Virus record (IMG/VR): IMGVR_UViG_3300047552_001097
Coordinates: 1-64,000 of that record
From: a virus
Strand: one strand, 5' to 3'
DNA length: 64,000 nucleotides
A program made the position numbers and the translations under genes. Of the stretch, positions 3,831 to 34,001 are shown in pieces. The notes below the pieces were generated by a model. That model searched no databases. It was not told the DNA's origin and saw only the letters and a program-made list of their open reading frames with translations. Numbering within the stretch: position 1 is the first letter of the stretch; each line of letters opens with the position of its first letter.

Positions 3831-3865
3831 ATATATAATATTAAAAGTAAACATAATAAAAAGCT

Positions 3866-4045
3866 ATGATATATTATAATTTAGGTTCATTACCCTCAGA
3901 GATTAGAAGTGTAAATGCTTCTATTTCTATGCCAAGGTTTAATGCTGCTAGAATGGAGACTCCTATTCCTATTTCTAGACCTTCTGGTACTAGTTCTTTT
4001 AGTAGAGCTAGAGGTCCTGGTATTGGGTATTTATTTCAACAATAA
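3866..4045 (+). CDS. Small basic protein, 59 aa
   Basis: This reading frame fills most of the otherwise empty 3814-4127 interval. The product starts MIYYNLGSLPSEIRSVNASI and ends in a Ser/Arg/Gly/Pro-rich tail (PSGTSSFSRARGPGIGYLFQQ-type composition). It has no recognised domain. Codon use matches neighbouring genes, and it is flanked by an upstream palindrome and a downstream hairpin terminator, which supports an independent unit. It could be a short virion or peptide-like protein. Confidence 0.5.
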   Translation: MIYYNLGSLPSEIRSVNASISMPRFNAARMETPIPISRPSGTSSFSRARGPGIGYLFQQ

Positions 4046-4061
4046 GTTCTAATAAATATAG

Positions 4062-4082
4062 GCTCTATAGATGATATAGAGC
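4062..4082 (+). terminator. Hairpin terminator after the 59-aa ORF
   Basis: GCTCTATA, loop GATGA, then TATAGAGC form a perfect 8-bp stem, followed by TTATACCTTTT. It lies 16 bp after the stop of the 59-aa ORF and before the tail-gene set that starts at 4128. It probably separates the two transcripts. Confidence 0.5.
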
Positions 4083-6212: not shown

Positions 6213-6363
6213 TATTACTTATATACAACTAGTTATATCTATATTTAATAGAGAGGGGGACTTATTAGATTGTATAAGTGAGTATTTACCTAACTCTATA
6301 TCTGTAATAAGAAGTAAGGTAAAGGTGGTTTATAAGATGATAGAGAAGCTAGAACTAGACTAA
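6115..6363 (+). CDS. Hypothetical protein, up to 82 aa, start uncertain
   Basis: The part beyond the upstream gene (about residues 33-82) has normal composition (DITYIQLVISIFNREGDLLD, then a basic helical end), so this end is probably coding. The ATG at 6115 forces a 98-bp overlap with the 123-aa gene, and later ATG codons at 6136 and 6151 are alternatives. The 3' end overlaps the stop of the giant - strand gene by 9 bp. The function is unknown. Confidence 0.45.
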   Translation: MIILYQLMSNHLMIYSCLTQQPIELDSLKIPNDITYIQLVISIFNREGDLLDCISEYLPNSISVIRSKVKVVYKMIEKLELD

Positions 6364-9300
6364 ATCCTCATACTCAGAGTTATCTATAGTAAGTTCAACT
6401 ACAGAGTTGTTAGAGACCATAGCAAAGAGACCCTCTGGTACAGAGAATTCATTAGATATATAATCCCCTTCAAATATAGACTCACTAACTCTAACCATCT
6501 CCTCCCATTGAATAAACCCACCATCCTCACTATAGATATCTGGGTCATTAGTATCCTGCTCTGTACTATAAGCCTCTGATATAAGTTGCTCATCTATAGC
6601 CTCAATAGCTCTTTCTATAATAGTAAACTCTGATTGGTTATCTGTTATAGGTTGCATCATACTACCAGCTATACCTGCACCTACCATACCAAATAGTCCT
6701 GAGAGTACAGCACTAGTTATACTCTGAGCAGCTATCCTTTTACCGCCCATAGCATCATAATCTAGAGCTCCTTTATTACTATTAAATAGATATCTTAGTT
6801 TCTCATTAGAGGAAAGTTGACTAAGTTTAGCTTCTCTATACATCTGAGCTTTATATGAGCTTAGATGAGATAGAGACATCATAGAGTTAATAGCACTCTT
6901 CTCTACAAATGGAGCTACTACAGAAGCACCTAGAGTAAAACCTATTTCTCTAGCTGCTGCTAACCCTATAGCCTCACCTAAATCTCCATCTGTTTCACTA
7001 AGAGCCATATTAAGTTTAAAGGAGCCTCCTATCATAGACTTAGTTAACATAGCTTTAGGGTCTATACTAGTTCCCTTCTTACCGTAGGCTATAGAAAAGA
7101 TAGTACCCCCCACTATATTACCTATAGCGTCTGGGTTGATAGTCCCATTAATAACAGCACTACCTATAGTGGTTAGAGCTAGAGGTAATGCTAGTTCCAT
7201 AAAGTTATTAATGTTATTAAACTGTACTGCCTGGGATAGATTATTAAAATTAGGGGTAAGGGACTGGGCGTAAGCATTAGAACTACCTGTATCTACCTTG
7301 GTTCTAAGACTGGCTAGTTTATGCTGTCTATACTCTGATGTGGCTTTATTATATTGTCTCTCTATCTGTTCTATCTCTGTTATAGAGAGACCATGATTCT
7401 CTCCTAATAGAGCTTTAATAAAACTCTCTCCCTCTACATAAGAATCTATCTCCTCTTTTTTTCCATACATCTTAGTAAGGAACTCGTTAAGAGCCCTCCC
7501 TTTTGCCATAGAGGCAGTGGTCTCTAACTTATTTGATAGATACTTCTCTAGAGTGGTATTAATAGTATTACCATTTTCATCCTTATACTCCATACTAGAA
7601 CCAGACTCAATGGCATTAAATAGAGCTAGTCTAGATTGAAAGTCTTTCTTAGCTTCTTCCTCTGGCATGTTAGCTAGTTTGTATGCAAATGTATCAACTA
7701 TTTTTCCATTCTCCTTTTTAATACCAGTCATAAGGAGAGGGATATTTCCTTTAAAGTTAGTCTTTAAAAATTCATTAGAGGCAAAGGTATCCCATACAGC
7801 AGGTATAGCATGAGAGCTTAGTTTATTACTTCCAGCTAAATTAAGCATGGTATCCCATATATCAGCTCCTAGTAGTTCAGTATTAGAAGAGTTACCTCCC
7901 ATTAGGCTAATAGTTTTTTGTCTAGCTCCTTCCATATCTGTAAATCTACTTAACCCCTCTCCATATTTACCCATCATCTTATCGGTAAATTCTGTAGTAG
8001 TATTAATAATCTCTAACATACTAAGAACCTCTCTAGCTCCTCCTTTATTTGTATCTAGGTTTAAGTAATTAGATTTAATATCCTCTTCATTTTTATTAAA
8101 GATTCTAGATAGGATATGAAGGTTTCTAGAACCCTCTGCTGTATCTGAATTAAATCTTTTATTAATGAAATCTTGTATATCTTCTCCATTTACCTGGTCT
8201 CTATCCTTACCTAACTCCCTACTTATTATCCCTATATAACCAGAGAAGATGGTGTCTAAGAAGCTACTTTGTTCCCCTTTATCATATCCACTTGCTCCTG
8301 TAGTTATGTTATATCTATAGGCTATAACTAAGGATTCAAGGTCTCTCTTTACCTTTAAAGCTCCAATATCAAAGGCTGATATCTCCTCTTTATTACCAAA
8401 TGTATTAAGTTCTTGTACTAATCTTTCATATTGGGTGTTATCAATACTAAGGTCTGAGGCTAGAATCTGCTCATTCTTAGTAGAAGTAGCCCCTCCCCAG
8501 AAGGATGAAACTATTACCCCATTCATTAATTTAACTCTTCCATCCTCACTTAAGGTCTCTCTATTTCTCACTAAAGAGCCTAGTTGCATAAATACATCCA
8601 TACCAACATTAGAGCCAGAGGGACCGAACTTACCTGCTTCTCTAGTGATAAGAGCTCTTTGTTTATCTGGATTATCACTTAGGGACTCATATTCACTAGA
8701 TAGTCTCTCCATATTAGCTATGAAATCACCTCCAGCTTTAGGTTTAATTCCATCTCTTAATAGTTGGTTTATGCTTTTTATAAAGGCTAGGATTCCCTCT
8801 CCTGTATCACTATTTCTCTTAATAGAGGATACAAAGTCCTCTTCTTTTATCCCTTGAGAATTATAGAAATCATTATCTCTAAGGAACTGTTTAGTAGATT
8901 CCTCTTGAATAATAGAGGATAGAGCTAGTAAAGGACTCTCTTGATATAAAGTTCCTACAAAGGTGTTATAGGTTTTACCTAGTACATCACCCCCAGCTTT
9001 ACCCATAATCTTAACCATCATGTCATAACCAGTAAGAGACATATTAACCCCTGCCCCCTGTCCTAATATAGATTGAAGACTACTTACACTCTTTAATCTA
9101 GCTGCATATAAACCACTAGCCCTAGCTAATATCTCCTCCTCTTGTTCCTTAGATATAGAAGTAGAGTTAGGGGCAATAGATTGTATAGATTTGTACATAA
9201 GATCTAATAAATCCTTCTGAGCCTCCTCTCCCATAAGTAATATACCTAGATAAGTATTTCTATTAGCATTAGTCTCATCTTGGGCTAATACCTTTAATCT

Positions 9301-12300
9301 ATCTTGTAATAAATGAAACCCAGAATGGGCATTAGATACAGAAGCTAGATAGCTAAATAAAGACATATTAGGACCATTATTACCAGTAGTAGGTATACCT
9401 GTTTGTTGCTTAGATAAAACAGTAGTCTCTGTATTTATAAAGACATCCTTAAGGATGCTATTCACTTTCTTAATAGAAGAGCCCGTACCCCCTAATCCCC
9501 CAAATAGACCTCTACCCTGTTCTATAAAAGTAAGAGCTACATTCATACTTATATCATTCTGTTGAAAACCTTCTGGTCCTCCTAAGAAATGTTCTACTCT
9601 TATACCTAGGTAGTTAGCCACCTCTTTCTTAACAGCTTTACTAAAAGAGGAACTTTCTAATTGATTTCTCCAGGTGTATAACTTAGCCTTATTATTAGCT
9701 ATCCTTACTTTATGTTCCTCTATCTCACTCTTAAGGATATGAACCCTAGTCTTTTCTTCTTTTATACCTTCTTCTAAAGCCAATCTATCTTCATATGAGG
9801 ATAAGGGACCTAGACCCCCTACTTTATTATCAATGCTAGTATCTAGAGCCCTTATTCTAGCCTCTGTAGTCTTAATCATAATACTGTCACTCTCTATAGA
9901 CCTTTGTAGGTCCATAAACTGACTAAAGATAGTAGTATAGGGGTCCCCATCAAAGTCCCCTATATTCATAGTTAAAAGGGATATGGGGGATAGTAGAGAT
10001 AATCCTTTATTCCTTTCCTCATCGTATTGAACCATAGAATCCTGTCCTATAGCTTGATTAAGTAGAGATATATCTTGTATAACAGTAAGAGCCATTCTTT
10101 GTTGTTCACTACCTCCAATGGGGGGACTTCTAAATCCTAAGACTTCAATACTATCTCTCATGTCTAGATGGTTCATCATTTTTTCCATTAGAGCTATAGA
10201 GTTAGATAAAAGACTTTCATTAAGAGTTAGTTTATATTTATTTACTACTTGTCCTTTAACTACTCTAGACTCTGTAACAGCTAGCTTAGGGTTTATATTT
10301 AATAAAGAATATATATTTATATCTGGGTCAATAGATTTAAATATCCTTTCTAGAGCTTTAAGGGATGTGTCATTAATAGATTGGGTCTTAACTATCTTTC
10401 TAAGTATGGCTAGCCCACTAGATAAATCATCTAGTCCCTGTTTATTCTTATTAAGCATATCTATTTGAGATTCTGAGTTCTTAAAGGTATCTCTAGCCCT
10501 TCTACTAAACTCTTGACTTACTGAACTAGAGCTCTTAATATACTCTCCTAGAGCTGTCTCTATAACTATAGCCTTCTCCTTAATATCAGATATACCCCCT
10601 AGGTATTTATGCTCATCAAAGGAGAAACTTTTAGTTTTTTTATAAGTACCTTCTAAAGATTCAATAGTTTGAAGTAATCCAGGTTTATCTTTAGTACCCT
10701 CCAAATGTTGATAAATAGAACTATATTCCTCTTTAAATCTTTGATTCGATTGAGGTATAATATTCTCGAATCTATATTGAATATAAGCCAATTTCATTTT
10801 TATTGGCTCATAGGTAATATTTTCATTGGCCTCTATATATTTTTGATGTTCTTCTATAGCATTACCTTCTTTATCTTTTCCAAACCATTTAGGAACTTTA
10901 ATACTATCTATATCCTTATATAGAGTTTCTAGTTCACCCTCAGATAGAGATGGGTTCTCTAGTTTAAGTTGAGATATAACTAGTTCTTGTTTTCTCTTTT
11001 TAAGTTCATCTAATTGATTTTTAGTATCAGCTTGATAGGTAGTAAATATATTTCTTATAGCTTCTTTAAACAGCTTAATTTCTTTACCTATATTAAGAAC
11101 TTTATCCTTTAGACTTCTATGTTGAGAAATTATAGAACTCCTTTGTTCTAGTAGAGTAGTTTTTCTTACTTCTATTAGTTTATTAATAGAGAGGGTTATA
11201 GATTCTTCTAACTCTCTTAATTGATTAAGTTCAGAGTGATACTCTATAGAGTTTCCAGGATGAATTTGCTTTTTAAACTCTTGTATCTCACTTCTTATAT
11301 TGGCTCTATTAATCTCTAAAGATTCTATTAGTCTAGTAAACTCTCTTTTTTCAATAGATTTATCTATTCCTATATCTCTAAGAAATAAAGAAGCGGCTTT
11401 CTCTTCTCTTATAATTATTTCTTTATACTTGGATATAGACTTAGATAAACCCTGGATAGAGGATTTAGTATCTACTTCACCTAATCTACTTTGTATTTCT
11501 TTTATAGCTTTACCATTAATCTCATCATATTTAGATTTAAGTTCCTTTTCTCTAGACATTAGATAAGTAATAACAGGGGAGTACCTATCTAAACTAGATA
11601 ATCCTTCTATAGAATTTATCCTAGTAGATAAGTGTTCTATTTCTCCATCTAACTTTTTAATTTGAAGCTCTAATGGACTTTCATATTCACTAATCTCTTG
11701 AGTAAGAGCTAATTGCTTTCTTTCTAATTTAGCTTTATACTCTGTTAAATCAGCCCATTCACTATCGGCTATCTCTTCATAAGGAGCTATCTTTAAGAAA
11801 TAAAGTCTATTTTCTAATTCCCTCTCTTCTAATAAAAGTCTAGAAGAGTCTTGTTTATACTCTTTAACTTTGTATAAATGATTAAGTTTATTTTTTACTT
11901 CTGTATATTCTTTATCTATTTTGTTAATATATTCTGTACTATGAATTCCTAAGTGTATATTTCTCTTAATCTTAGATAAGATTTCTAATCTAGATTTATA
12001 ACTAGAAATATCTTCTTCTAGAATTCTATAGCCATTGGAACTTGGATTTAAACCCATCCAAGGAGGAGTTTCCAAAGCACTTCTATCATATATTTTTATA
12101 CTACTTTTAATTTTATTTATATATTTTAATCTACTTTCAATTTCTCTAGAGTATTGGTATATAAGTCTTTTAGTAGTACCTAGCCAAGTTTCTCCTTCTA
12201 ATTCACTTATAGTTCTATTAACATATTTATGTTCTTCTTCAAGTTCTTGTTGTATAGATTCTAGTTTCTTTATATCTCTTTCTCTAATTTCCTCGTCCCT

Positions 12301-15300
12301 TTTTTTAGCTTCTGGTGAGGATAGAAACTCTATAGTAGCATTTCTATATTTCATTTCGAGTTCACTTAATTCTAGTTGTTTACTCTCTAAGGAATTATAT
12401 CTACTACCATAATCATCTAGATAAACACTCTTAGAAGTAGAGTCTATACTCTGTTGAATACTAGTTCTAGCTCTATTTAATCTATTTAACTCATTCTCTA
12501 AATCACTTATAGAGTTATTACTATACTCATTTCTACTTTTATCTAGTTCTTTCCTTAATACTATAGAGGTAGAATCACTAGGTTTAATGTCTGGAAATAA
12601 TTCTCTACCTACTAAACTATTCTGTTCTAGAGTTATATTGGCTCTCTTTATATATAGTTCTTGTTCTACTTTTCTAATTCTATCTTCTATTTGTTGTAGA
12701 TTATTACCATGAATTAGTAAATCTTCATTATTAGGTCTAACCATTATAGTTCCACTTTTACCCTCTTCTTTAGCCTTTTGTATCTGTTCTATAAGGTTTA
12801 TTTGTTCTTCTCTTAATTTAATTAATCTATTCTTATCATCTCTAATAGAATTTAACTCCTCACTTATTCCAATTAAGGAGGAGATTCTATCTCTTTCTAG
12901 TTCTAATATCTTAACCTTACTCTTTATATAACCATCTTCTAAATCAATATCCTTAGAGTTCTTTATTAAATCTAGTTCATATTCCAATTTAGATAAGTTA
13001 TCTCTAGTGGGTCTCATCCCCTTAACCTTACTTTCTTGTAGCTTTAATCTATAGATAATACTATCTGAACTATCGATTTCTTCTATAGTTCTTTCTATAT
13101 AATGAATCTCTTTATTAACATCTGATAGGTTACTACTATATATTCCTCTAATAAAAGAGGCTATTCTCTTAACTGTTTTATTATCTGGAACTATCTTACT
13201 TAATGATTTACCTTCTTCTACTATCTTAGTTAATCTAGTTCTTTCACTATTTAATTCTTTAATCCTTTCATTAATAAGGGTTTTATCTATACCCTCACTA
13301 GCTCTTTTAAGACTTAATAGCTCTAATCTCTGTTTATTTAAACTCTCAACTTGGCTTTCTATATCAACTAAATAGCTATTTAGATAATCCAAACTACTAG
13401 ATATATCAAAGCTACCACTCTTTTCTAGAGCCTTAAAACTATTTAATATACTAGATAACTCCTCTCTTTTATTTATTAAAGAAGGGAGACTGTTTATTTG
13501 ATTAATCTTTCTAGATAATGAATCTGGGTCATTACCACTAGAATTAATTCTTTGTAATTCATTTAAATCTCTTAACTCCCTATTTATCTCTCTAAAGGTA
13601 GGAGCATATGCTTCAATATGGCTCTGAACTCTCTTATAATATTCACTGAACAATACAGATACTGGTATAGAATCCACCCCAGTAGCTACTTGTAAAACCC
13701 TTCTTATATTACCTAGTTCCAATTGATTAGCTTTACTTAATCTCTCTTTAAATATAGAACTAGCCTCATTTACTAGTTTTAATACTTCTTCTGGGAGATT
13801 ATAATAAAGGTCTTCTTGTATAGATGGAAATATGGAATAATCAACTAGATTACTTTGAAATATAGAGAAGAATATATTTAAATCCATACCTGCTGGACCA
13901 CTAACTCTATTATTAATGTCTAGAGTCATCTTATATAAGAACTCGGAAGGGATATTATATCTGTATTCATTATTTAAGAAAGGCTTAGTTGTCTTCTCAT
14001 AAACTATACCTTTATTCGTCTTAATCCTATTTATTTCATCTTCTAATACCTCTAGTTCTATAAGAAAGATTCCCTCTTTATATACTTTAGAACCCTCACT
14101 TAATCTTTTCCATTTATTGAATTTAGTCTTATCTCTTTTATATGCCTTATTTTCCTCTATATCTCCTTCCACTAATCCGCTTCTTTTTATCCTTTCAGCC
14201 TCTAGTTTAGCTAGTTCTACAGCTAAAGAATCTCCCTGATTCTTACCTATTTGTATATTAGATAGGAGTTCAAGTCTAGATAAAAGGCTATTAGCCTGTC
14301 TATTAAGGGGTTCTATAACAGCAGTATCTTCTTGGTTTATACTCCCTAACTTACCAATAAGAGAGTCCACTTCTTTCTTTATAGTTAGAACTTCATCAAT
14401 ATACGACATACCTAAAGGAGAAAGTCCCCCTCTAACTGCTAATAAAGCTGCTCTAATAACATTCTGTTCCTTATAAGAGCTACTAGAATTACCTATATTC
14501 TCTAGTAAACTAACTAATTCATAACGTTCAGGACTAGCACTAGTATATCTATTAAGAGCCTCTTTAGCTAATAGAATACTACCATTAGGTATTAACCAAG
14601 AAGCTGCTGATGAGGTTACAGCTCCACTATGTCTAGTTTTAAATCCAATAGCAGCTTGAGCTCTAGTACCAGCACTAGCCTCTGCCATAAGATTAACTAT
14701 ACCCTGGTCTCCAAAAGCATAGGAGTAGAACTTCTTAAGTAGTATAAGTTCTTCTTTATCTAGTTCAATAACACCTGTACCTTCTTCCTTAGCTCTAACA
14801 ATCTTATCTCTAACATTAGACATAGCAGTACCAGGAGCAAAGGCACTAGCTAGAAATATGGTTCTACTTACTATCTCATCAATATAAGAACCATAGGCAT
14901 CACCTAATCCTTTAAGTTCAGCTCCACTCATAAGATAACTATAATACTTCTGACTATAGTCCAGCTCTAGTCTTACCTTACCCCCTATGTCATTACTACT
15001 ATCCTCTGACATATATATCTGAGGAAGACTAAAGGCAAAGCTCTTATAGTTTAACTGGTCTAGTATAGGGGATACAGAACCAGCTCCAAAGGGTTTATCA
15101 CTATGTAATTGATAGTACCTACTTATATCTAATAACCTTCTAGAACTTATATTATCTAATAAAGTAAGAGCCCCAGTTATATCAAATCCAGACCCCATCT
15201 TATCTTTCATATCTACAATAATCCCTCTTATAGCCTCATTCTCTGATGGGTTATAGGTCATTAATTGATTAATCTTTTCTATGGTATCTATCCTACTCTC

Positions 15301-18300
15301 AGGTGTAAGGTTATTACTATCTAGCTCCTTTATTAATATATTAACTACATTATTTACTAGAGCTCCATATGACTCATAGTCCTTCTTATATTGATTTAAA
15401 TAGGCTGTAGTCCTAGCATCTACCCCAGCATATATACCTAAGAACTTACTCTTATGTAATTGAGAACCTAGTCTTATATCTGATATGTCATATACTTTTT
15501 TATCTATCCAATCTCTATCCCTTATATCCCCACTTACACTATGTAAAGTTGCACTATCTGATACAACAGATAACATATTAGCAACTATAGTTCTTAATGA
15601 GGATATAGACCCTTGTTCTTGGAAGGATGAACTTACTTGCATAAGGGGTTTAAGTAAGTGCTGATATTCCAGAGCTCCTGTAGACTTAGAACCTATAGAC
15701 TCCTTACTCTCAGAGGCTAGTAGGTCTGTGAATAATCTTATAACTGTAGATTGAGTAGTAAATCCTCTTACCATAGCTCTAACAGCATTAAGATAATCTA
15801 AAGATTCCTTCTCCTCTTTATCTAAAGATGTTAATGACCTTTTCTCTAATAGAGAACCCCTCTCTAGTTTATTAAGGTCCACATCCCCCATAATAGAAGC
15901 TATTTGTTTAATAATTTCATTGTTATTAAAATCTATTTCTGTAGGTATGGTTATGCCATCATTATCATATTTAGATAGTTGGGCTATAAGGTCTAGGGAA
16001 CCAGCTAGTATAGAAGCCTCTCTTTCAAAGGGGTTATCTATTCTAATAAACTCTCTACCCACTAGACCTTTACCTTCTCCTAGATCTGATACTAGTTTTC
16101 TCTCTAACCATGAAGTGATATAATTAATACCCTCTTGTTCCCCTTTAGCTGCTTTAAGTAACATCTGAGAATCTAGTAGAGCTAAGGAAGGTGTCTGTTG
16201 AGTATTAAACAATCCCTTTGTCTTAGATACTAGAGCATTACCAAACATAGAACCAAACTTAGTTCTTATATCTTGGTACTTGTGGTAATTAGGGTCACTA
16301 TCATTGAATATGGCATTTATAGCAGTATCAAAGTCCCCTAATCCAGTAATAGCTCCTACTAATTCAGAGGACCCGTTTAAATGACTAATAACAGTTCCTA
16401 GAGCCTGATTCCTAAAGAAGGAACCCATTTCCCCTTTAATACTAGATTCAAATAGAATCGTATTAATATCCTTCTTTACATCAGAATCCATCCACTCATT
16501 ACCAAAGGCTAGGGCTAAGGATAGTAATAGTTTATTCCCTTTCTTATTAGATATAGTATTAGGATTAAACTCACTTATAAGAGAACGTAATAGCTGTTCG
16601 TTTCTTACTATATGGGAACCATGAGAATAGAAATGACTCTTTAAGTTAGTGGGGTTAAAAAGACCAAATATAGAGCCCACATCTACTTTTGTATATCCAT
16701 CCTGAGTCTTATTGAATTGGGCAGCTAGATAGGAGAAGAAGTCCATGTTTTGATATCTACTATCTTTAATATCCAGGAAGTCAGTGGATGTGAATTTAAG
16801 TACAGCCTTAGCTAGAGTACCAATACCCTCAACTCTTCTACCCCCCTCTAGAATAAAGGAGCGGTTATATACCATTTCCCATATAAGCTGGTTATTATCA
16901 GCATTACCTGTTAATTGTTTAGAGCTTACTAGATATTCTATAGAGTTAGCTGCATTCCTATGCCAAGTCTGTCTATCTAATCTAGAGACATTAGGTAAAT
17001 CATCTATAGTTCTAAAGTTATCTATTACTCCATTAAGGAATGCCACCTGGTCCCTAGAGTCTACCATTGATTTAAGGACATAATGTCCAGACTCTCTATC
17101 TAAAGAATAATACTTATTAAACTCTGTACCTAATACTGCTTGTTTAAGAGTAGATAAAACATCCTTTGATTGATTAATAAGCTCAATAGATTGTTTAACT
17201 CCACTAGTTGTTTCACTTATTAACTCACTAGAGTTACCCCATACTAGAACTCTATTAGTATCAGTATCAAAGGTTATGATATCTCCTTTACGGGCTAGTA
17301 GTTTACCATTAGAGACCCAATCCTCTGATAGTTTAGAGGACTTCTGTTTCTTCTCTGCTTTCTCTATAAAGCCACTCATAGTTCTAATCTTAGACATAAC
17401 CTCCACTCTTTCATTTAGAGGTATGTTCTTATAGCCTTTATATTGTTTTATTAAAGAATGTAACTCTTTAATGTCATCATTACTTCCACCATATAGGGGG
17501 TTGGCATAGGCATAATCACTAAAGTCTCCAGTTAGTTGAACTAATATAACTGGATTAAGTCCTTCTGTTGTACCAGTAAACCCCTTGGTTCCAGAGGCTA
17601 AACTATCAGCACTTCTCGCTCTATATAACAACATAAAGCGAGCTAATGAAATGTCCCCTCTTCTATATTCAAAGTCTTCTTCTTTAAATCCAAAGTCTTC
17701 TTTTAACTCTTCTTTAGCTTGTTCTACTATAGATGCTAACTCACTGGTCATAACCCCTCTAAATCCACTAGCATTTATAATTCCAATACTTAAGTCCTCA
17801 CCTAAGTAACTCTCAGCTTTAAGATATAGATGATTTAGTTTATGTAATATAGTTTGTTTAGATTGATTATTTAATCCTTTTGTTCTATCTATAGCTATTT
17901 CTATTAGTCTATTAAAGGAGTAAAGTCCTATATTATCTTCTTGAACTACTATTTTCAGATTATCCAGGACCTTCTTTGTATTAGTATCTATACCAGAATT
18001 TGTAGTGTTAAGTCTATTAAATAGGGTTTCTACTACTTGAACTTTAATATTTAGACTTCTCTTTTCTATAATATTATTAACATTACCCTTTGTTAAAAGG
18101 GCATAGGATATTTCTTTATCTATTTCATACATACCCCTAGTTCCTAGTTTATTCTTCATTCTTTGGGGTACTTGACTAACTTTCTTAGCAACATTATAAG
18201 TATAAGTAACTATTTCATCACTATATTTAAAGCCACTTCCATCAATAATTCTTTCATATTTACTATCAATCTTTTGGATAAGACTAGATTCAAAGGTACT

Positions 18301-21300
18301 TTTACCCCCCTTTCTTCTATTTCTATATTCATTTAATCTATTAACCATAGCTTCTATACTATGAATCTCTTCATTATATAGAGCTACTTTATACTCATTA
18401 TAGATAGATTCAAAGATATATCTATCAAACTCATCTCTTTTAGTTACATATCCGACCCCACCATATTTAGCAAACTCTACTAAAGCTATATCTCCTATAG
18501 GAGTTTTCTTAATTCCATGTATAGATAAACCCCCTTCTTCTATACTTTCACTTATAGAACCACCTTCTGCTACACCTCTAATAGCTCCTTCTGTACCCTT
18601 ACCAGTAGTATCTGAAGGACCAAATATATAAGGTTGGGCTATAGCAAATCTAAATATATTGCTTATACCATCCCCTCTTTTCTTTAAATTACTAAGGAAA
18701 ACTCTTTGAGACCTATTAATTCCATATAAAGGAGTTTTGAATTCAGCCTGGTTATCTGTATAAGTAGATACCTGTTTCTGTGTAATAAAGGGTTCTAGTA
18801 GTCCAGCTTTAACTAACTTAATGGCATTAATAAAGCTATCATCGTACATAAATTCCCTTCTACTCTCTATAATTCCAAGAGCAATGTCTGATTGAAATGT
18901 ATGTATATCCCCTATTCCCATACTTAAATCGAACCCTTCTCTTATACTTTCTATAACAGCTTCCTTACTAAAGAGTAGTTGTCTCTTATTAGATTCAGAT
19001 AAATTACTATCTTTAAGAGCTCTATTAATAGTTCTAATAGCTTGTAATCCTTTAATAACCCTAGTTCTTATATCTAAGTCATTAGAGTTATCTACTAATT
19101 GATATGACATAAGGGAAGAACTCTTAAGCTGAGAGACTATATCCTCTCCCCCTCTAAGGTTTAAAGAGGCTTTAAATGAGCCACTAATACCTATTCCATG
19201 TCTCTGTTCAAACTTTGTTATTAAATTAGTTATCTCTATATCTGATAGGGAACTAGACCTTAAGAAGTCTCCAGCTATGCCATTATATCTAGATACTCTC
19301 CCATAAGTTAAATACTCTAGATAATCTAACCCAGCTTTACCTAACATACTATTACCCTGAACATTCTCCTTTTTACTTAGAGACCTCATATAATGCAAAG
19401 GTTGAGTTATTAAAGCTCTATAAGTCATCTCCCCAGCTAAAGAAGATATAACGTTAGAAAATGTTTCTATAGGTGTTAGTAATAAACTCTCCCTGCTCTT
19501 TAATGGTTTATATTGAAGACTATAAGAACCATCATCTCTCCTAGTAAAGGAATCTTTACCATAAGGAAGATTTATAGTCTCTTCTTGATTATTAATAAAT
19601 AGACTTTTACCTACTAGCTTATTCTGGTCTATAAGATATATAAACCCACTTTTATTATTTAATCCCCCTTTTAAAGCTGTAACTCTAAAGGAGGAATTAT
19701 TATATGTAACCCCAGCTTTATGTCCACTTATTAATGAACCTGCATTAATATCTACCTGTATACTTATTAGTTCTCCATGTTGACCATAAGATTTCTTTAT
19801 AGATATACCTTCCCCTTTACCTAGTCCCATTTCTTTATTAAGGGCTTCTAGTCTAGCTATAAGAGTGTTAAGAGAAGCTCTATCCACTTTATTAGTCCAT
19901 GAGGCTTTACTAGAGGATAGAGAACTATCTACATTACCTACTTTAGTTCTAGTTAATCTAAACCACTCTCTTTCTAGGTGTTGACCCTCTGAGGCTTTAA
20001 AGTCCTCCATCTCCTCTGACATACTATCTTTACTTCTATATAGAGTCCCCTCTCTTTCACCATATCTCCTCATATCTCTAGCTAGATTAATAATACCCAC
20101 TTCCCCACTAGTAGTATCATCCCCTACATCAAAGGCTAAGGAGGAACTACCAAAGTTAGATGAACCTTGTATAGCTCCTATATGTTTAAAGGAATCATCC
20201 TCCCCTCTATACCTTTGTATGGCAAATATATTCTTTACATGACTCATAGTCTCTGTAACCTCTATAATATTCCCACTAGTTATAGCTAGTATCTGAAGGG
20301 CTGTTCTATAACTAGACTCACTACTTACCTTATTATAGAATCTGGATAATTTATCTCTAGGGTCAATGAATTTATCTATAGATACTCCATAGTTAACTCC
20401 CCCTTTATCTAATCCTAAAAGATTAATAAGGGCTTTAGAGTCTCTATTTACTGCATTAGTAAGAGTTCTTAGAGAACTACTGTATCTATCTTCAAATACC
20501 TTAGAACCTAATCTAACAGTAGATTCATAATCTAGGGAGGTGTTCTCCATTCTACCTAGGAGATAACTAACTTTCTCTATAGTAGGTTCTAGAACTTTAT
20601 CTCTATAGTTTCTAATATCAACAGAGACATAGGCTCTTCCCTTATTAACTAGCTCAAAGAACTTATATTGAATCTCACTTCTATAGATAGAGTCTCGGTT
20701 ATTACCTTTATTCCTTATTAAGAATGTTTCTATAGGTATAGTTCTAGATTTACCAGAGGGACCAAACTCTCCACTATAATCCCCTTTCTTACCATAATAG
20801 ATATCATCATCTAGTTGAAGGAGCCATACCTGGTTAAGGTTAGCGTATAGTTCTATAGGTTTATCATATGTAGATTTACTAGAAGCATATTTAATCATAG
20901 TCCTAAGTCCCTGTCCTATATCCCCGGCATTACCTATTTGATTACCAGTAACAGCTCTTCTAGTTTTAATCTCATTAAGAGCTATCATCCTAGCTTGGAG
21001 GTATAGATGTGTATCTATATACTCCTGTTTCTTCTCCTTTGTCATAGAACTAGAGAAGGAGCTTCTTATATCTAAAGCTGTTCTTTTAACTCCATCCATA
21101 TCTGGAATATAGTAGCTAGATGAATTAGGATTTATTCTATCTAGTCTATTATGAAGAATGATTACTTCTTCATAGTTAGACCCTGCTACTGAAGGACTAT
21201 TACCTACTGGAGAAGTTAAGTTAAAGGAGCCTAACATAGCAAACTTCTCAGTAGTATATAACTTAGGGTGATAGCTGCCACTATCTATAAACTCTAGGTT

Positions 21301-22473
21301 CATATTAGGTAGATAGTTAGCTATAGTGTTATTTATATTACCTGGTGATGTAAGAGTCTCTACATCATTAACTCCTAGGGATATAAGTTTCTCTTTAACA
21401 ATATCCTTTTGAACTCTATAAATCCTTTCCATAATAATAATATTAGGGCCAAGGATTTGATGACCCACCATATTAGCATTACTTCCATTAGAGGGGGCAG
21501 CTAGTCTAATACTAAACTTAAAGTCTCCAGAGGCTATTCTACTAGATTCCCTCTGTAGTTTAGATACTAGTACATCAGATATAGTCTTATTCTGAAGTTG
21601 AAATAGGTCTATAGTTAGTTCTTTATCGGCACTTTCTATAAAAGCAATAGCCATTCTCACACCGGGTTTATATACATAATCACTCTTATCTAGTAACCTA
21701 GTGGAGAAATCTTTGACATAAGAAGTAGATGTAGTAAACCCATAATCCATCCTTTTTAATAGAATCTCTGGATCTGTTCTTATTAATTCATCATGTATCT
21801 TGTTAACTCTATTAGTAACTTGATACTCTTCTCCAGTTAATAAGTGATTTAAAACCCATCTTCCCTTAGCCATTCCATCTAAATCATTAATATTAGGATT
21901 CTCTTTTAGTATCTTAAGACCCCCATATATGTTCTTATTAACTTCATTACTAACTACTTCAGTAGTGTCATGGTCAAATAAATATCTATATGCAACACTG
22001 GAAGTATACCTTTCATACTCTATTCGGCGCTTATCCTTTTCCTTCTCAGATAGAGTTGACTCAAAGAAACCATCATTTAATCCAATATTAAACTCTCCAG
22101 TTATACGATTAATGGCCTTTATCCCACTAGTTGATAGGTTGTATAAATCACTTGAAAAGGCAGAGAATGCGTTTCTAGCTAGAGCTCTAGCTGCTTCTTC
22201 ATATACATCTACCTTATCCTGTAGAATATCCTGTTTAACAACTTGTTTTATATAATCCCTTCTTTGAACCTCTTCCTTCTCTGTGTAATAACCCCTATAG
22301 TTCTTACTAGAACTTACTCCAAAATCCTGATTATATTTATCATCATATTGTTCATTAAAAAGGAAATGGGTATTAATAGTATCTTTTAAATGGTCTCTTA
22401 TTCCTTTCTCATAGAAAGAACCACTTAATATTCTATTATCTGTAGGGTTATTACTCCAATTAGGATAGTGCAT
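6355..22473 (-). CDS. Giant 5,372-aa protein: PLD-like enzyme, coiled coil, candidate single-chain RNA polymerase
   Basis: One uninterrupted frame covers a quarter of the window. Residues about 265-800 carry two phospholipase D/nuclease half-sites: HPK at 402-404 with GSFN at 415-418 and later acidic residues, then HVK at 745-747 with GSSN at 770-773. Residues about 2960-4020 are almost continuous coiled coil rich in E, K, L, I and S. At 4173-4177 lies DFDGD in the context NIGDFDGDPY, preceded by GFRSPPIGG. This resembles the catalytic loop and upstream R-x-P element of RNA polymerase beta-prime/YonO/crAss-like enzymes. A possible beta-like basic element, GFKTRHSG, is at 2610-2617. Hydrophobic stretches occur near 5090-5130, 5170-5190 and 5250-5275. 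I infer a virion protein ejected into the host. A tape measure is the alternative, because the tail assembly chaperone gene is next door. Existence of the gene is certain; the polymerase role is moderately supported. Confidence 0.93.
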   Translation of the reverse strand: MHYPNWSNNPTDNRILSGSFYEKGIRDHLKDTINTHFLFNEQYDDKYNQDFGVSSSKNYRGYYTEKEEVQRRDYIKQVVKQDILQDKVDVYEEAARALARNAFSAFSSDLYNLSTSGIKAINRITGEFNIGLNDGFFESTLSEKEKDKRRIEYERYTSSVAYRYLFDHDTTEVVSNEVNKNIYGGLKILKENPNINDLDGMAKGRWVLNHLLTGEEYQVTNRVNKIHDELIRTDPEILLKRMDYGFTTSTSYVKDFSTRLLDKSDYVYKPGVRMAIAFIESADKELTIDLFQLQNKTISDVLVSKLQRESSRIASGDFKFSIRLAAPSNGSNANMVGHQILGPNIIIMERIYRVQKDIVKEKLISLGVNDVETLTSPGNINNTIANYLPNMNLEFIDSGSYHPKLYTTEKFAMLGSFNLTSPVGNSPSVAGSNYEEVIILHNRLDRINPNSSSYYIPDMDGVKRTALDIRSSFSSSMTKEKKQEYIDTHLYLQARMIALNEIKTRRAVTGNQIGNAGDIGQGLRTMIKYASSKSTYDKPIELYANLNQVWLLQLDDDIYYGKKGDYSGEFGPSGKSRTIPIETFLIRNKGNNRDSIYRSEIQYKFFELVNKGRAYVSVDIRNYRDKVLEPTIEKVSYLLGRMENTSLDYESTVRLGSKVFEDRYSSSLRTLTNAVNRDSKALINLLGLDKGGVNYGVSIDKFIDPRDKLSRFYNKVSSESSYRTALQILAITSGNIIEVTETMSHVKNIFAIQRYRGEDDSFKHIGAIQGSSNFGSSSLAFDVGDDTTSGEVGIINLARDMRRYGEREGTLYRSKDSMSEEMEDFKASEGQHLEREWFRLTRTKVGNVDSSLSSSKASWTNKVDRASLNTLIARLEALNKEMGLGKGEGISIKKSYGQHGELISIQVDINAGSLISGHKAGVTYNNSSFRVTALKGGLNNKSGFIYLIDQNKLVGKSLFINNQEETINLPYGKDSFTRRDDGSYSLQYKPLKSRESLLLTPIETFSNVISSLAGEMTYRALITQPLHYMRSLSKKENVQGNSMLGKAGLDYLEYLTYGRVSRYNGIAGDFLRSSSLSDIEITNLITKFEQRHGIGISGSFKASLNLRGGEDIVSQLKSSSLMSYQLVDNSNDLDIRTRVIKGLQAIRTINRALKDSNLSESNKRQLLFSKEAVIESIREGFDLSMGIGDIHTFQSDIALGIIESRREFMYDDSFINAIKLVKAGLLEPFITQKQVSTYTDNQAEFKTPLYGINRSQRVFLSNLKKRGDGISNIFRFAIAQPYIFGPSDTTGKGTEGAIRGVAEGGSISESIEEGGLSIHGIKKTPIGDIALVEFAKYGGVGYVTKRDEFDRYIFESIYNEYKVALYNEEIHSIEAMVNRLNEYRNRRKGGKSTFESSLIQKIDSKYERIIDGSGFKYSDEIVTYTYNVAKKVSQVPQRMKNKLGTRGMYEIDKEISYALLTKGNVNNIIEKRSLNIKVQVVETLFNRLNTTNSGIDTNTKKVLDNLKIVVQEDNIGLYSFNRLIEIAIDRTKGLNNQSKQTILHKLNHLYLKAESYLGEDLSIGIINASGFRGVMTSELASIVEQAKEELKEDFGFKEEDFEYRRGDISLARFMLLYRARSADSLASGTKGFTGTTEGLNPVILVQLTGDFSDYAYANPLYGGSNDDIKELHSLIKQYKGYKNIPLNERVEVMSKIRTMSGFIEKAEKKQKSSKLSEDWVSNGKLLARKGDIITFDTDTNRVLVWGNSSELISETTSGVKQSIELINQSKDVLSTLKQAVLGTEFNKYYSLDRESGHYVLKSMVDSRDQVAFLNGVIDNFRTIDDLPNVSRLDRQTWHRNAANSIEYLVSSKQLTGNADNNQLIWEMVYNRSFILEGGRRVEGIGTLAKAVLKFTSTDFLDIKDSRYQNMDFFSYLAAQFNKTQDGYTKVDVGSIFGLFNPTNLKSHFYSHGSHIVRNEQLLRSLISEFNPNTISNKKGNKLLLSLALAFGNEWMDSDVKKDINTILFESSIKGEMGSFFRNQALGTVISHLNGSSELVGAITGLGDFDTAINAIFNDSDPNYHKYQDIRTKFGSMFGNALVSKTKGLFNTQQTPSLALLDSQMLLKAAKGEQEGINYITSWLERKLVSDLGEGKGLVGREFIRIDNPFEREASILAGSLDLIAQLSKYDNDGITIPTEIDFNNNEIIKQIASIMGDVDLNKLERGSLLEKRSLTSLDKEEKESLDYLNAVRAMVRGFTTQSTVIRLFTDLLASESKESIGSKSTGALEYQHLLKPLMQVSSSFQEQGSISSLRTIVANMLSVVSDSATLHSVSGDIRDRDWIDKKVYDISDIRLGSQLHKSKFLGIYAGVDARTTAYLNQYKKDYESYGALVNNVVNILIKELDSNNLTPESRIDTIEKINQLMTYNPSENEAIRGIIVDMKDKMGSGFDITGALTLLDNISSRRLLDISRYYQLHSDKPFGAGSVSPILDQLNYKSFAFSLPQIYMSEDSSNDIGGKVRLELDYSQKYYSYLMSGAELKGLGDAYGSYIDEIVSRTIFLASAFAPGTAMSNVRDKIVRAKEEGTGVIELDKEELILLKKFYSYAFGDQGIVNLMAEASAGTRAQAAIGFKTRHSGAVTSSAASWLIPNGSILLAKEALNRYTSASPERYELVSLLENIGNSSSSYKEQNVIRAALLAVRGGLSPLGMSYIDEVLTIKKEVDSLIGKLGSINQEDTAVIEPLNRQANSLLSRLELLSNIQIGKNQGDSLAVELAKLEAERIKRSGLVEGDIEENKAYKRDKTKFNKWKRLSEGSKVYKEGIFLIELEVLEDEINRIKTNKGIVYEKTTKPFLNNEYRYNIPSEFLYKMTLDINNRVSGPAGMDLNIFFSIFQSNLVDYSIFPSIQEDLYYNLPEEVLKLVNEASSIFKERLSKANQLELGNIRRVLQVATGVDSIPVSVLFSEYYKRVQSHIEAYAPTFREINRELRDLNELQRINSSGNDPDSLSRKINQINSLPSLINKREELSSILNSFKALEKSGSFDISSSLDYLNSYLVDIESQVESLNKQRLELLSLKRASEGIDKTLINERIKELNSERTRLTKIVEEGKSLSKIVPDNKTVKRIASFIRGIYSSNLSDVNKEIHYIERTIEEIDSSDSIIYRLKLQESKVKGMRPTRDNLSKLEYELDLIKNSKDIDLEDGYIKSKVKILELERDRISSLIGISEELNSIRDDKNRLIKLREEQINLIEQIQKAKEEGKSGTIMVRPNNEDLLIHGNNLQQIEDRIRKVEQELYIKRANITLEQNSLVGRELFPDIKPSDSTSIVLRKELDKSRNEYSNNSISDLENELNRLNRARTSIQQSIDSTSKSVYLDDYGSRYNSLESKQLELSELEMKYRNATIEFLSSPEAKKRDEEIRERDIKKLESIQQELEEEHKYVNRTISELEGETWLGTTKRLIYQYSREIESRLKYINKIKSSIKIYDRSALETPPWMGLNPSSNGYRILEEDISSYKSRLEILSKIKRNIHLGIHSTEYINKIDKEYTEVKNKLNHLYKVKEYKQDSSRLLLEERELENRLYFLKIAPYEEIADSEWADLTEYKAKLERKQLALTQEISEYESPLELQIKKLDGEIEHLSTRINSIEGLSSLDRYSPVITYLMSREKELKSKYDEINGKAIKEIQSRLGEVDTKSSIQGLSKSISKYKEIIIREEKAASLFLRDIGIDKSIEKREFTRLIESLEINRANIRSEIQEFKKQIHPGNSIEYHSELNQLRELEESITLSINKLIEVRKTTLLEQRSSIISQHRSLKDKVLNIGKEIKLFKEAIRNIFTTYQADTKNQLDELKKRKQELVISQLKLENPSLSEGELETLYKDIDSIKVPKWFGKDKEGNAIEEHQKYIEANENITYEPIKMKLAYIQYRFENIIPQSNQRFKEEYSSIYQHLEGTKDKPGLLQTIESLEGTYKKTKSFSFDEHKYLGGISDIKEKAIVIETALGEYIKSSSSVSQEFSRRARDTFKNSESQIDMLNKNKQGLDDLSSGLAILRKIVKTQSINDTSLKALERIFKSIDPDINIYSLLNINPKLAVTESRVVKGQVVNKYKLTLNESLLSNSIALMEKMMNHLDMRDSIEVLGFRSPPIGGSEQQRMALTVIQDISLLNQAIGQDSMVQYDEERNKGLSLLSPISLLTMNIGDFDGDPYTTIFSQFMDLQRSIESDSIMIKTTEARIRALDTSIDNKVGGLGPLSSYEDRLALEEGIKEEKTRVHILKSEIEEHKVRIANNKAKLYTWRNQLESSSFSKAVKKEVANYLGIRVEHFLGGPEGFQQNDISMNVALTFIEQGRGLFGGLGGTGSSIKKVNSILKDVFINTETTVLSKQQTGIPTTGNNGPNMSLFSYLASVSNAHSGFHLLQDRLKVLAQDETNANRNTYLGILLMGEEAQKDLLDLMYKSIQSIAPNSTSISKEQEEEILARASGLYAARLKSVSSLQSILGQGAGVNMSLTGYDMMVKIMGKAGGDVLGKTYNTFVGTLYQESPLLALSSIIQEESTKQFLRDNDFYNSQGIKEEDFVSSIKRNSDTGEGILAFIKSINQLLRDGIKPKAGGDFIANMERLSSEYESLSDNPDKQRALITREAGKFGPSGSNVGMDVFMQLGSLVRNRETLSEDGRVKLMNGVIVSSFWGGATSTKNEQILASDLSIDNTQYERLVQELNTFGNKEEISAFDIGALKVKRDLESLVIAYRYNITTGASGYDKGEQSSFLDTIFSGYIGIISRELGKDRDQVNGEDIQDFINKRFNSDTAEGSRNLHILSRIFNKNEEDIKSNYLNLDTNKGGAREVLSMLEIINTTTEFTDKMMGKYGEGLSRFTDMEGARQKTISLMGGNSSNTELLGADIWDTMLNLAGSNKLSSHAIPAVWDTFASNEFLKTNFKGNIPLLMTGIKKENGKIVDTFAYKLANMPEEEAKKDFQSRLALFNAIESGSSMEYKDENGNTINTTLEKYLSNKLETTASMAKGRALNEFLTKMYGKKEEIDSYVEGESFIKALLGENHGLSITEIEQIERQYNKATSEYRQHKLASLRTKVDTGSSNAYAQSLTPNFNNLSQAVQFNNINNFMELALPLALTTIGSAVINGTINPDAIGNIVGGTIFSIAYGKKGTSIDPKAMLTKSMIGGSFKLNMALSETDGDLGEAIGLAAAREIGFTLGASVVAPFVEKSAINSMMSLSHLSSYKAQMYREAKLSQLSSNEKLRYLFNSNKGALDYDAMGGKRIAAQSITSAVLSGLFGMVGAGIAGSMMQPITDNQSEFTIIERAIEAIDEQLISEAYSTEQDTNDPDIYSEDGGFIQWEEMVRVSESIFEGDYISNEFSVPEGLFAMVSNNSVVELTIDNSEYEDLV

Positions 22474-23702: not shown

Positions 23703-25079
23703 ATGGATAGAACTCCAGTAGAGAATAAGACAACACAACTAGAGAGTAGCCCTCCTAGTATAGATTTAATCCCTTCTTATAAAAGGAAACCCCCAGTAAT
23801 AAGACAGATGGGTAGAACCACTTCTTATATCTCTACTGGAGATGACCTCTTTACCTCTTGTGTTAGACCTAGTATCCAACAACTATCCTTATGGGATTCA
23901 GCTAGAAGGAAAGAACCTATTCTATTTGATGGGTTACAAAAGATGGTAGGAGCTGTTAGAGCTAAGTATGCTGGATGTAGTCATCCAGACCCTATTATTA
24001 ATACTTTTGTTAATAGAGTTCTAGAGAATAGAATACTTGAATGGGTAGGCTCTATAACTAATACTATGCTATGGAGTGGGTTCTGTGTAGGAGAGATAGT
24101 CCATGAATATAAGACTGGTATTAATGGGGAGAAGCAGGTATGGATAAAGGACTTTTTTACTTACCACCCTATAGAGCCTAGATTTATATTAAATAAACAG
24201 GGACTTCTTACTCATGGCGAGTTAATGGAAGAAAGTTCTTTATCTACAGGTATATGGGTTCCAGCTCCGGAGTATTTATCATCTAAAAGAGCTATAAATC
24301 ATTCTTTTACAGGTAGTCATGTTAGATTACCTAAGACTAAAGTTTTTCATATAGCTTTTAATTCAGAAGGTAATAATCCTTATGGAATGTCTCAATTAGA
24401 AGCTGCTACTAAATATCATATATATAAAGAAACCTTCTTAGAGATGGAGGCAGCCGCTCTTGATAGATATGGGACTCCCCTTATTTACTGTACTGTACCC
24501 TTACAAAAGACTAAGGAATCAGTGCAAGAGCCTGATGGTTCTATAAGGGACCTTTATTACCATGAAGTAATAAGTAATCATCTAGCTGATTTGAGGTCAC
24601 AGCAGACCATAGTTTTATCTTATGCTGATAAAGATAACCCACCTAAGTTAGAGGCTCTTACTACAGGTAATAACTTTAGTGATACGTTTAATATGGGTAT
24701 AGAACTCTGTGATAGTAATATGATGATAGCTCTAGGTATACCTAATCTAATACTAAAAGATAATAATCAGGGGTTAGGGACTGGTGGTGCAGCAGAGAGA
24801 CAAATGGAGGCATTCCATTTATTTATTACAGATATATTTAATACAGTAACTAATAAGATAATAGAACAGGTTATTACTCCTTTAATTCTATGGAACTTTG
24901 ATATAGATAAGCATCCATTAGCTACTCAACCTGTTACCTTTCTATCTAAACCTATTAGATGGTCAGAGAATCAGGTTCTGGTTAATGTTATTAAAACACT
25001 AACAGAACTTAATTATATAAACCCAGAGGACCCTAAACATAAGGCTTGGGTACTAGATATGTTTAATATACCTAAATAA
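23703..25079 (+). CDS. Portal protein
   Basis: At 458 aa with the pattern of Mu gp29/DUF935-like portals: GNNPYGMSQLEAA (near 232-244) followed by a long helix YHIYKETFLEMEAAALDRYG and PLIYCTVPL, then a helical crown region with an NNQGLGTGG loop. Portals form the dodecameric ring at one capsid vertex through which DNA is packaged and ejected. The position before protease, scaffold and capsid genes supports the call. The start has the AAATATGG context. No terminase gene lies upstream in this window. Confidence 0.85.
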   Translation: MDRTPVENKTTQLESSPPSIDLIPSYKRKPPVIRQMGRTTSYISTGDDLFTSCVRPSIQQLSLWDSARRKEPILFDGLQKMVGAVRAKYAGCSHPDPIINTFVNRVLENRILEWVGSITNTMLWSGFCVGEIVHEYKTGINGEKQVWIKDFFTYHPIEPRFILNKQGLLTHGELMEESSLSTGIWVPAPEYLSSKRAINHSFTGSHVRLPKTKVFHIAFNSEGNNPYGMSQLEAATKYHIYKETFLEMEAAALDRYGTPLIYCTVPLQKTKESVQEPDGSIRDLYYHEVISNHLADLRSQQTIVLSYADKDNPPKLEALTTGNNFSDTFNMGIELCDSNMMIALGIPNLILKDNNQGLGTGGAAERQMEAFHLFITDIFNTVTNKIIEQVITPLILWNFDIDKHPLATQPVTFLSKPIRWSENQVLVNVIKTLTELNYINPEDPKHKAWVLDMFNIPK

Positions 25080-27953: not shown

Positions 27954-29219
27954 ATGCCAGTTCCAAATAATACAAACTTTTCACCCTGGGCCTCTCCTCT
28001 TAGTCCTATTAGACCGGACTTAATTCCTTCTGAACCTATTTATACAGAAGTAGCTAGAAGTTTTATTCCTAATGTTGGTCAATCCCCCCTAACTGAATTA
28101 TTCCCTATTGAGGAAATTCTAGAACGTACTGTTATTATCAACCAATACTTTGAAGCTGCCTATTCTATTTGGCCACTTGTTGATTGGGGTAAGCCTGATG
28201 TTGTAACAGGTTTTAATAAAGGGGCTATGCAAACAAGAAGCTATCAACCCCTTGTTATTCGTAATACTAAGGCTCTCTCATATGGAGAGATGAATATTCG
28301 TCTTCGTAGTGGTACTAATGAAAGATGGAGACCAGAAGAACAAATTGTTAGTGTTATTGAAGGTATGGTAAGAGAACATAACCTAACATGGGATGTATAT
28401 CGTACTATGATGCTTCAAGGTGGTATTGACCATAGTGATAGTCAAACAGGCTCTTCCGCTAGAGTACCTGCTGAAATCCCTCTTCATAACATCTGGAATT
28501 GGTCTGTATCATCTGGTTATAAGGGTAGAGCTGATTCCTCTGTATTTCTAGATATTACAGATAACAACTCAGTACAACCTACTTCTCAAGGTACTCCTTG
28601 GACCCACCCTAATGCTGATGTCTTAGGTACTATACAAAAGATTAGTAGTTATTTCTCTACTACTAATAAGAGTATGCCTACTGATATCTATATGTCTAGA
28701 GAACTAGCTCATATCCTAGCTGGTAATAACCAGGTTAAGATGGCTAGAGGAGCTACTGTATTTGGTTTACCAGGTGGAGCAGTTTCTAGAGATACTCCAG
28801 ACCCAGACTTATCTAGAATGTTTAGTATGGATAATATGGGTCTATCATCTATTAATGGTCTTCCTGTTAAGATTATTGATACTATCTATAGAGACCAAGC
28901 TACTGGTTTAATGCGCTCTGCATGGCCTAAGAATAAGGTAGTAATTGCATCTAGAGTAGCTCCAGATGGTTCTCCTGAAGCTCCAGGTAGAACTCAGTTC
29001 TGTATATCTGAACAAGCAGGTACTTCCTCTGGTCTATGGGTAAGAACTATTGATAACTCTGTACCCCCAGCAGCCCCTGCTATGATGATTCAAATGGGTA
29101 ATGCTGGTCTTCCATATCTTAAATACCCCTATAGAGTTGTTCATATGACAGTATCTAGTGTGGCTGATGTTAATGCTAGATTAGGTGCTGTAGGGGACCT
29201 AAGTTTTGGTGTTGTATAA
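27954..29219 (+). CDS. Major capsid protein (HK97-fold)
   Basis: This 421-aa protein follows the protease-scaffold gene and has capsid features: an N-terminal arm, ELFPIEEILERTVIINQYFEA, a long spine-like helix region (EEQIVSVIEGMVREHNLTWD), and YMSRELAHILAGN with a beta-rich C-terminal A-domain (VAPDGSPEAPGRTQF). Codon use is unlike its neighbours, with many CGT arginines and C-ending codons, which fits a very highly expressed gene. It begins in an AATAAATATG context and ends just before a long hairpin terminator. Confidence 0.85.
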   Translation: MPVPNNTNFSPWASPLSPIRPDLIPSEPIYTEVARSFIPNVGQSPLTELFPIEEILERTVIINQYFEAAYSIWPLVDWGKPDVVTGFNKGAMQTRSYQPLVIRNTKALSYGEMNIRLRSGTNERWRPEEQIVSVIEGMVREHNLTWDVYRTMMLQGGIDHSDSQTGSSARVPAEIPLHNIWNWSVSSGYKGRADSSVFLDITDNNSVQPTSQGTPWTHPNADVLGTIQKISSYFSTTNKSMPTDIYMSRELAHILAGNNQVKMARGATVFGLPGGAVSRDTPDPDLSRMFSMDNMGLSSINGLPVKIIDTIYRDQATGLMRSAWPKNKVVIASRVAPDGSPEAPGRTQFCISEQAGTSSGLWVRTIDNSVPPAAPAMMIQMGNAGLPYLKYPYRVVHMTVSSVADVNARLGAVGDLSFGVV

Positions 29220-33251: not shown

Positions 33252-33982
33252 ATTCTTATCCAATAACTACAGCAGTACCTTCCTTACCTTTCTTATGTAG
33301 ATATATATTCAGACTATTATCTACACATCCCCTAATAATAAATCCACCTATATATCACCCTGTAACAGGAGAAAGAGTTTATATAAAGGGATATAAGTTA
33401 TTTAATGGTATAGAGACTAATCTAGGTTTATATTGTTCTATATTTCCTCACTCTACTCCTACTGATGGTATAAGTCTACCTAAACCAGCAGATACATCTA
33501 CTTCTGTTCTATTTGAGCCCCAAGGTAATGGGTATGATTTAGCAGTATACCATATAGCTCTTAAACTTCACTATAATTTTTCTATATTAGGTAATAAGGA
33601 GACTAATAATGACCTTATAGCTGTACCCTTAGATGCTGCTATACACCCATCTCAGACTCCATATGCTAGAGAGGGGTCTAGAGAGTTAGAACTATACTAC
33701 AGTCCAAGTCTATACATTATTGGTGAGTATTTAGAGTTAATACGATTAGCTATTTTAGATAAAGAACATACATTTTCTATGCCATCTGTTTTTAGAACAT
33801 CAGATATACCAAGAAATATACAGGTTCTTTATTTTAATTTAAAGACTCCACCTTGGGAGAAGGATAAGGCTTTATATTTCCATGAAGGAGAAATACTTAT
33901 TCGTATTGATTCAATCCTATCTAAAGAATGGAAGAGTCAATTTGAAGTTCCCACTGCTTCCTTCCAAGTCTCCGTTTTATAA
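33245..33982 (+). CDS. Tail terminator/neck candidate, 245 aa
   Basis: This beta-rich protein lies immediately before the sheath gene, where contractile phages usually encode the tail terminator (gp15-like) or a neck protein. Features are YHIALKLHYNFSI (a likely strand pair near 105-117), PSLYIIGEYLELIRLAI and a C-terminal SILSKEWKSQFEVPTASFQV. No family is recognised with confidence. Coupled to the upstream gene by overlap. Confidence 0.55.
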   Translation: MLDSYPITTAVPSLPFLCRYIFRLLSTHPLIINPPIYHPVTGERVYIKGYKLFNGIETNLGLYCSIFPHSTPTDGISLPKPADTSTSVLFEPQGNGYDLAVYHIALKLHYNFSILGNKETNNDLIAVPLDAAIHPSQTPYAREGSRELELYYSPSLYIIGEYLELIRLAILDKEHTFSMPSVFRTSDIPRNIQVLYFNLKTPPWEKDKALYFHEGEILIRIDSILSKEWKSQFEVPTASFQVSVL

Positions 33983-34001
33983 TCTTTATTTAATATTATT
34001 T

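Follow-up and report, generated by a model that had tools for sequence, protein, structure and literature searches.

In cellular beta-prime, an active-site arginine precedes the DFDGD motif. The same order of residues is found in the single-chain phage enzymes P23-45 gp96 and phi14:2 gp66; a third single-chain enzyme, YonO, is also relevant here. The precedent for a giant virion protein with a hidden two-barrel polymerase is gp96 of Thermus phage P23-45, a 5,002-aa virion protein that was recognised via its conserved DFDGD alone and is otherwise without detectable RNA polymerase similarity (PMC10770324). In this giant single chain, FRNPVMG is followed by DFDGD (at 779); the polymerase, which has been solved, is N-terminal, has a short inter-barrel connector and is joined in one chain to a tape measure protein that includes a peptidase. 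The virion RNA polymerase gp66 of the crAss-like phage phi14:2, likewise a solved enzyme, is also single-chain, with YRIPxxG followed by D-x-D-x-D. Eleven crAss-like relatives of gp66 carry YR[IV]P and, about 40 residues on, D[FL]D[IV]D, and the spacing between arginine and aspartate motif in gp96 and gp66 is about 40-45 residues. YonO of phage SPbeta, a single-chain DNA-dependent RNA polymerase of about 100 kDa and thus not giant, is a distant relative of multisubunit RNA polymerase (PMC5467207); it is likened to the protein described below by description, not by sequence.

The window, the whole stretch of 64,000 nucleotides analysed here, comes from a virus record of 171,917 bp. Its source is a contractile-tailed virus related to Microcystis phage Ma-LMM01. 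A giant gene in the window encodes a protein which, judging from its pattern of conserved residues, is predicted to contain a divergent single-chain two-barrel (DPBB) RNA polymerase (rough probability 0.75). The gene and its features are as follows:

6355..22473, minus strand: giant gene, 5,372 aa, homologue of Ma-LMM01 gp80 (ORF and blastp)
20044..21792, minus strand: PLD-like domain, residues about 228-810, with two HxK...GSxN motifs, H402 and H745 (family profile and sequence)
14278..16197, minus strand: conserved block upstream of the insert (residues about 2093-2732), a candidate for the N-terminal part and for the second (beta-like) barrel (iterated profile)
10234..14226, minus strand: coiled-coil-like insert between the blocks, residues about 2750-4080 (composition)
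10111..10137, minus strand: GFRSPPIGG, residues 4113-4121, with R4115 as candidate active-site arginine (Arg invariant in 18/18)
9943..9957, minus strand: DFDGD, residues 4173-4177, candidate catalytic metal motif (D-x-DGD invariant in 18/18)
8932..9051, minus strand: downstream block AGGDVLGKTYN, residues 4475-4514, possibly a bridge-helix region (conservation)
8737..8766, minus strand: QLLRDGIKPK, residues 4570-4579, possibly a trigger-loop region (conservation)
6664..7206, minus strand: C-terminal hydrophobic Gly/Ala-rich segments, residues about 5090-5130 and 5252-5270 (hydropathy)

In blastp comparisons the giant protein aligns with Ma-LMM01 gp80 in three long collinear pieces (E 5e-35, 6e-29 and 5e-27), with 21-23% identity to gp80 and to the proteins of MaMV phages (E 5e-27 to 5e-35) and 28% identity to a Microcoleus phage protein (E 2e-44 and 1e-70). 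Ma-LMM01 gp80 (YP_851094.1), which is annotated as a hypothetical protein, and its MaMV homologues share with the window protein the PLD-like domain, both polymerase-candidate blocks and the C-terminal part. However, gp80 is 3,562 aa long, against 5,372 aa in the window, and its inter-block stretch is much shorter. Scans of IMG/VR with growing alignments brought the relatives to about 18 distinct contigs (viral genomes); none was confirmed in GTDB genomes. When members were compared with named phages by tblastn, L046 and L048 gave no match, and the sole match of L047 was Microcoleus phage My-WqHQDG (2e-6). The start of the GenBank record of My-WqHQDG (L002:1-165) cuts the homologous giant gene, and the first ~55 residues of the gene product are a short tandem repeat (STDVSGSGSTVLPIV), so the point at which the record begins may reflect an assembly error.

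The giant gene adjoins the head and tail genes and is divergent from them, an arrangement shared with the gp80 gene of Ma-LMM01. The following neighbours give the context:

23703..25079, plus strand: portal protein (phrog_113, E 1e-18)
27954..29219, plus strand: major head protein (phrog_30785, E 4e-92)
33882..36983, plus strand: contractile tail sheath (phrog_30392, E 9e-151)
50365..51420, plus strand: baseplate wedge subunit (phrog_6, E 2e-34)

The sheath and baseplate matches bear out the contractile tail that the first-pass annotation had assigned to this phage. In the tail region, the protein encoded at 43045-44265 (plus strand) has a C-terminal domain of metallopeptidase/endolysin type (residues about 290-403) and also matches phrog_23188, the P23-45 tape measure profile. 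A clear tape measure protein is absent among the three long tail-region proteins of the window (39936-42572, 45909-49034 and 51426-54950, plus strand), one of which has weak baseplate/tape measure matches and two of which have no PHROG match. Outside the window, the same virus encodes a sigma70-family protein of 329 aa (Sigma70_r2, E 6e-20; L075, G000:C1:142697-142906, minus strand). The presence of a phage sigma factor in this virus deserves mention because Ma-LMM01 reportedly lacks the T4-type sigma factor gp55.

The N-terminal domain supports the proposed fusion with a PLD-like enzyme, both by family profile and by motifs. All members with a complete N-terminus match the PLD-like family profile except L046, L047 and L048, and the domain is kept in all Ma-LMM01-type members. 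The first HxK...GSxN motif is found by pattern in the window protein, LMM01, L005, L006, L007, L009, L013, L016, L017, L043 and L044, and the second, at H745 in the window protein, is also present in LMM01. Pfam PLDc_2 reaches only E 0.16 against the giant protein.

Within the 5,372-aa ORF, DFDGD is located at residues 4173-4177 inside NIGDFDGDPY, exactly as first reported, and GFRSPPIGG is present upstream, although the spacing given for it has to be corrected: R4115 lies 58 residues before D4173, not about 55. The motif occurs once in the giant protein, where 0.002 occurrences are expected from composition. At the DNA level, the GDFDGD pattern occurs once in the window (0 matches in 100 shuffles), and the DFDGD pattern has a single match in all 171,917 bp of the record. 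By itself, DFDGD is weak evidence, since antibody light chains in the PDB contain it too; the sequence argument draws its weight from conservation and not from the bare motif. Across a block of 108 residues in 18 aligned sequences, whose identity to the window protein is 17-55%, the only invariant columns are R4115, D4173, D4175, G4176 and D4177. The second position of the motif is F, W or Y in all 18 (D-[FWY]-DGD), and the invariant arginine is found 50-65 residues before DxDGD in 18/18, with P at +2 or +3 in most. Variants that keep the three aspartates and the glycine include DYDGD in L043 (residue 2785) and DWDGD in L016 (residue 3393). The first-pass annotation had staked its polymerase proposal on conservation of the motif in relatives, and both DxDGD and the upstream arginine are indeed invariant. 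Taken as sequence, the invariant R and DxDGD are the active-site signature of two-barrel RNA polymerases. The RNA polymerase reading is preferred because the sole strictly conserved residues near the motif are those which make RNA in known polymerases.

Less likely readings are a metal site without catalysis and a different nucleic-acid-copying enzyme of the same fold. Giant phage ejection and tail proteins often carry several enzymes and metal sites, a point in favour of an ejected virion or scaffold protein without polymerase, in which DxDGD would be a structural Ca/Mg loop, EF-hand-like or other. In an EF-hand loop, position 6 calls for Gly and position 12 for an acidic residue. Among 18 members, however, position 6 is P, S, N, T, M or A, never G, and position 12 is acidic only once, which rules out an EF-hand. 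Moreover, a Ca loop explains neither the always-aromatic second position nor the invariant arginine 50-65 residues upstream. Clustered aspartates in a D-x-D loop are also a property of TOPRIM, and a TOPRIM-like nuclease or primase domain could in principle hold the motif. TOPRIM requires a conserved Glu upstream, whereas no invariant Glu is present in the aligned block of 18, the invariant upstream residue being Arg, and there is no Pfam match. The missing Glu rules out TOPRIM proper and makes a TOPRIM-like domain highly improbable.

The first-pass annotation had also named a structure prediction without a double-psi beta barrel around D4173 as a refutation. AlphaFold models were obtained for an LMM01-like core (L009 residues 1700-2893, 17 alignment rows) and for the compact L046 core (24 rows). 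In both, the motif region is low-confidence and unfolded: pLDDT is 53 and 63, respectively, and mostly 25-50 in the motif region. With alignments this shallow, both models are too poor at the motif to weigh for or against two double-psi barrels. The L046 model is well predicted over a stretch upstream of the motif, but this stretch stops before the putative beta-like barrel. A Foldseek search with this low-confidence model returned no polymerase from the PDB; in BFVD its best match was the LMM01 homologue itself (E 0.0018), again with no polymerase. The absence of fold evidence for a polymerase in the two models and in Foldseek leaves room for a structural loop, which, weighed against the residues at positions 2, 6 and 12 and the upstream arginine, is unlikely.

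Like gp96, the window protein is a giant single chain, but its candidate polymerase occupies the C-terminal half, follows a PLD-like domain and contains a long insert, and its gene is outside the tail run. With phi14:2 gp66 it shares the single chain and the order of arginine and aspartate motif at similar spacing; gp66 has DFDID/DFDVD rather than DFDGD, and likeness outside the motif is not significant. The first-pass annotation had ascribed DxDGD to the crAss-like and YonO polymerases; the crAss-like enzymes compared here have D-[FL]-D-[IV]-D instead, and P23-45 gp96 does carry DFDGD. The family profile gave one local alignment with whole gp66 (2,180 residues), on the catalytic site (E 0.26), pairing Arg with Arg and DFDGD with DFDID, and its best alignment with gp96 is the catalytic DFDGD. 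Against the crAss-like profile, the top alignment of the family spans the Asp motif; none of 200 full shuffles scores as high, as against 15 of 200 shuffles that keep DFDGD, so that little similarity is shown beyond the motif. The shuffle results thus define the likeness as a catalytic signature in the right order and not as significant overall similarity. Significant profile similarity to a known two-barrel RNA polymerase beyond the Asp motif was found neither with profiles nor in Pfam or the PDB: Pfam searches with the family gave no polymerase above cut-off, and PDB sequence profile searches likewise gave none, with coiled-coil and antibody noise. This lowers the claim without excluding it, since P23-45 gp96 also lacked any detectable similarity beyond DFDGD (PMC10770324).

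The two-barrel fold might also serve in another role, in an enzyme that copies RNA or DNA or makes primers, or in a structural relic that has degenerated. The same fold is present in the eukaryotic RNAi polymerase QDE-1 and in archaeal PolD (PMC10770324), and member L013 touches PF05183 RdRP (E 0.023) across DFDGD. However, those two-barrel enzymes of phages that have been characterised to date are DNA-dependent RNA polymerases (PMC10770324; PMC5467207 for YonO). The strict retention of the catalytic residues makes a dead remnant unlikely; overall, a different role for the fold is distinctly unlikely.

For an RNA polymerase, a second barrel would be expected upstream in the chain, and the block at residues 2093-2732 is a candidate that may contain it. 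This block is found in the same order in every relative; P2484 and G2617 are invariant in the iterated profile, and a basic KTRHSG lies within it at residues 2612-2617. The insert that follows, of about 1,350 residues in the window protein, is rich in Glu, Lys and Arg and poor in Gly and Pro. It is short or absent in relatives: the two blocks are about 110-200 residues apart in the compact members L046 and L047. The linker of about 100 residues in L046, compared with an extra inter-block insert of about 300 residues in its relative L071, marks the insert as modular. A tape-measure-fused virion polymerase of the P23-45 gp96 type was also considered; a tape measure role was rejected on two grounds: the gene runs divergently from the head and tail genes, and the long coiled coil is missing from Ma-LMM01.

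Conservation extends downstream of the motif. G4475, G4494, G4499, Y4502 and N4503 are invariant, and Q4570, R4573, D4574, K4577 and K4579 are kept in all or nearly all members. By hhalign, these downstream blocks have no significant alignment to the bridge/trigger region of the crAss-like enzymes; for this reason no claim is made for the match, seen by eye, between LGKxYN and GVGITAN or between RDxxK and VDNAKDP. The C-terminal hydrophobic segments have comparable counterparts in LMM01, Mcol, L013 and L044.

Taken with the motif, its conservation, the domain order, the relatives and the gene neighbourhood described above, the analogy with P23-45 and the crAss-like phages suggests a fold, an activity, a presence in the virion and a timing for the candidate polymerase. 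The C-terminal part and the block about 1,500 residues upstream would together form one two-barrel DNA-dependent RNA polymerase. D4173, D4175 and D4177 would bind the Mg ions needed for catalysis, and R4115 would be the active-site arginine, as in cellular beta-prime and, by position, as in gp96 and gp66. The other barrel, including basic residues around K2612, would come from block 2093-2732, and the coiled-coil-like stretch would be an insertion that leaves the polymerase core intact. By the same analogy, the polymerase is on balance probably carried in the virion; no proteomic evidence of gp80 in virions was found in open-access papers. The whole chain would be packaged or attached and would exit with the DNA via the contractile tail. 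The PLD-like domain could have membrane lipid or nucleic acid as its target during entry, the hydrophobic C-terminus could sit in the membrane, and the polymerase core would transcribe the first phage genes while the genome enters. Later genes may use the host polymerase, given that the same virus encodes a sigma70-family protein. In P23-45, late genes are transcribed by the host RNA polymerase (PMC10770324).

A broader proposal is evenly balanced on the evidence: contractile-tailed cyanophages, Ma-LMM01 among them, would deliver single-chain RNA polymerases of a new virion-borne lineage, in which an insert of as many as about 1,350 residues splits the barrels and a PLD-like enzyme precedes them, and early transcription in these phages would not depend on the host RNA polymerase only. 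Few viruses of toxic Microcystis blooms have been studied as well as Ma-LMM01 and its relatives. A transcriptomic study of Ma-LMM01 describes host sigma70-like promoters for all gene classes, inferred by promoter prediction (PMC5780444), and MaMV-DH01 is reported to be without an RNA polymerase (PMC9927357). Neither statement puts gp80 to the test, and an annotation of gp80 as a polymerase was not found in open-access full text.

If true, the present reading would contradict the published view of full reliance on host transcription (PMC5780444, PMC9927357). It would change the idea of how Ma-LMM01-type phages start infection and would explain the largest unannotated gene of this group. Cultured phages would become available for studying the delivery of a virion RNA polymerase via a contractile tail. 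Moreover, a deep lineage would be added to the two-barrel polymerases, one in which compact (L046) and split (window) layouts could be compared.
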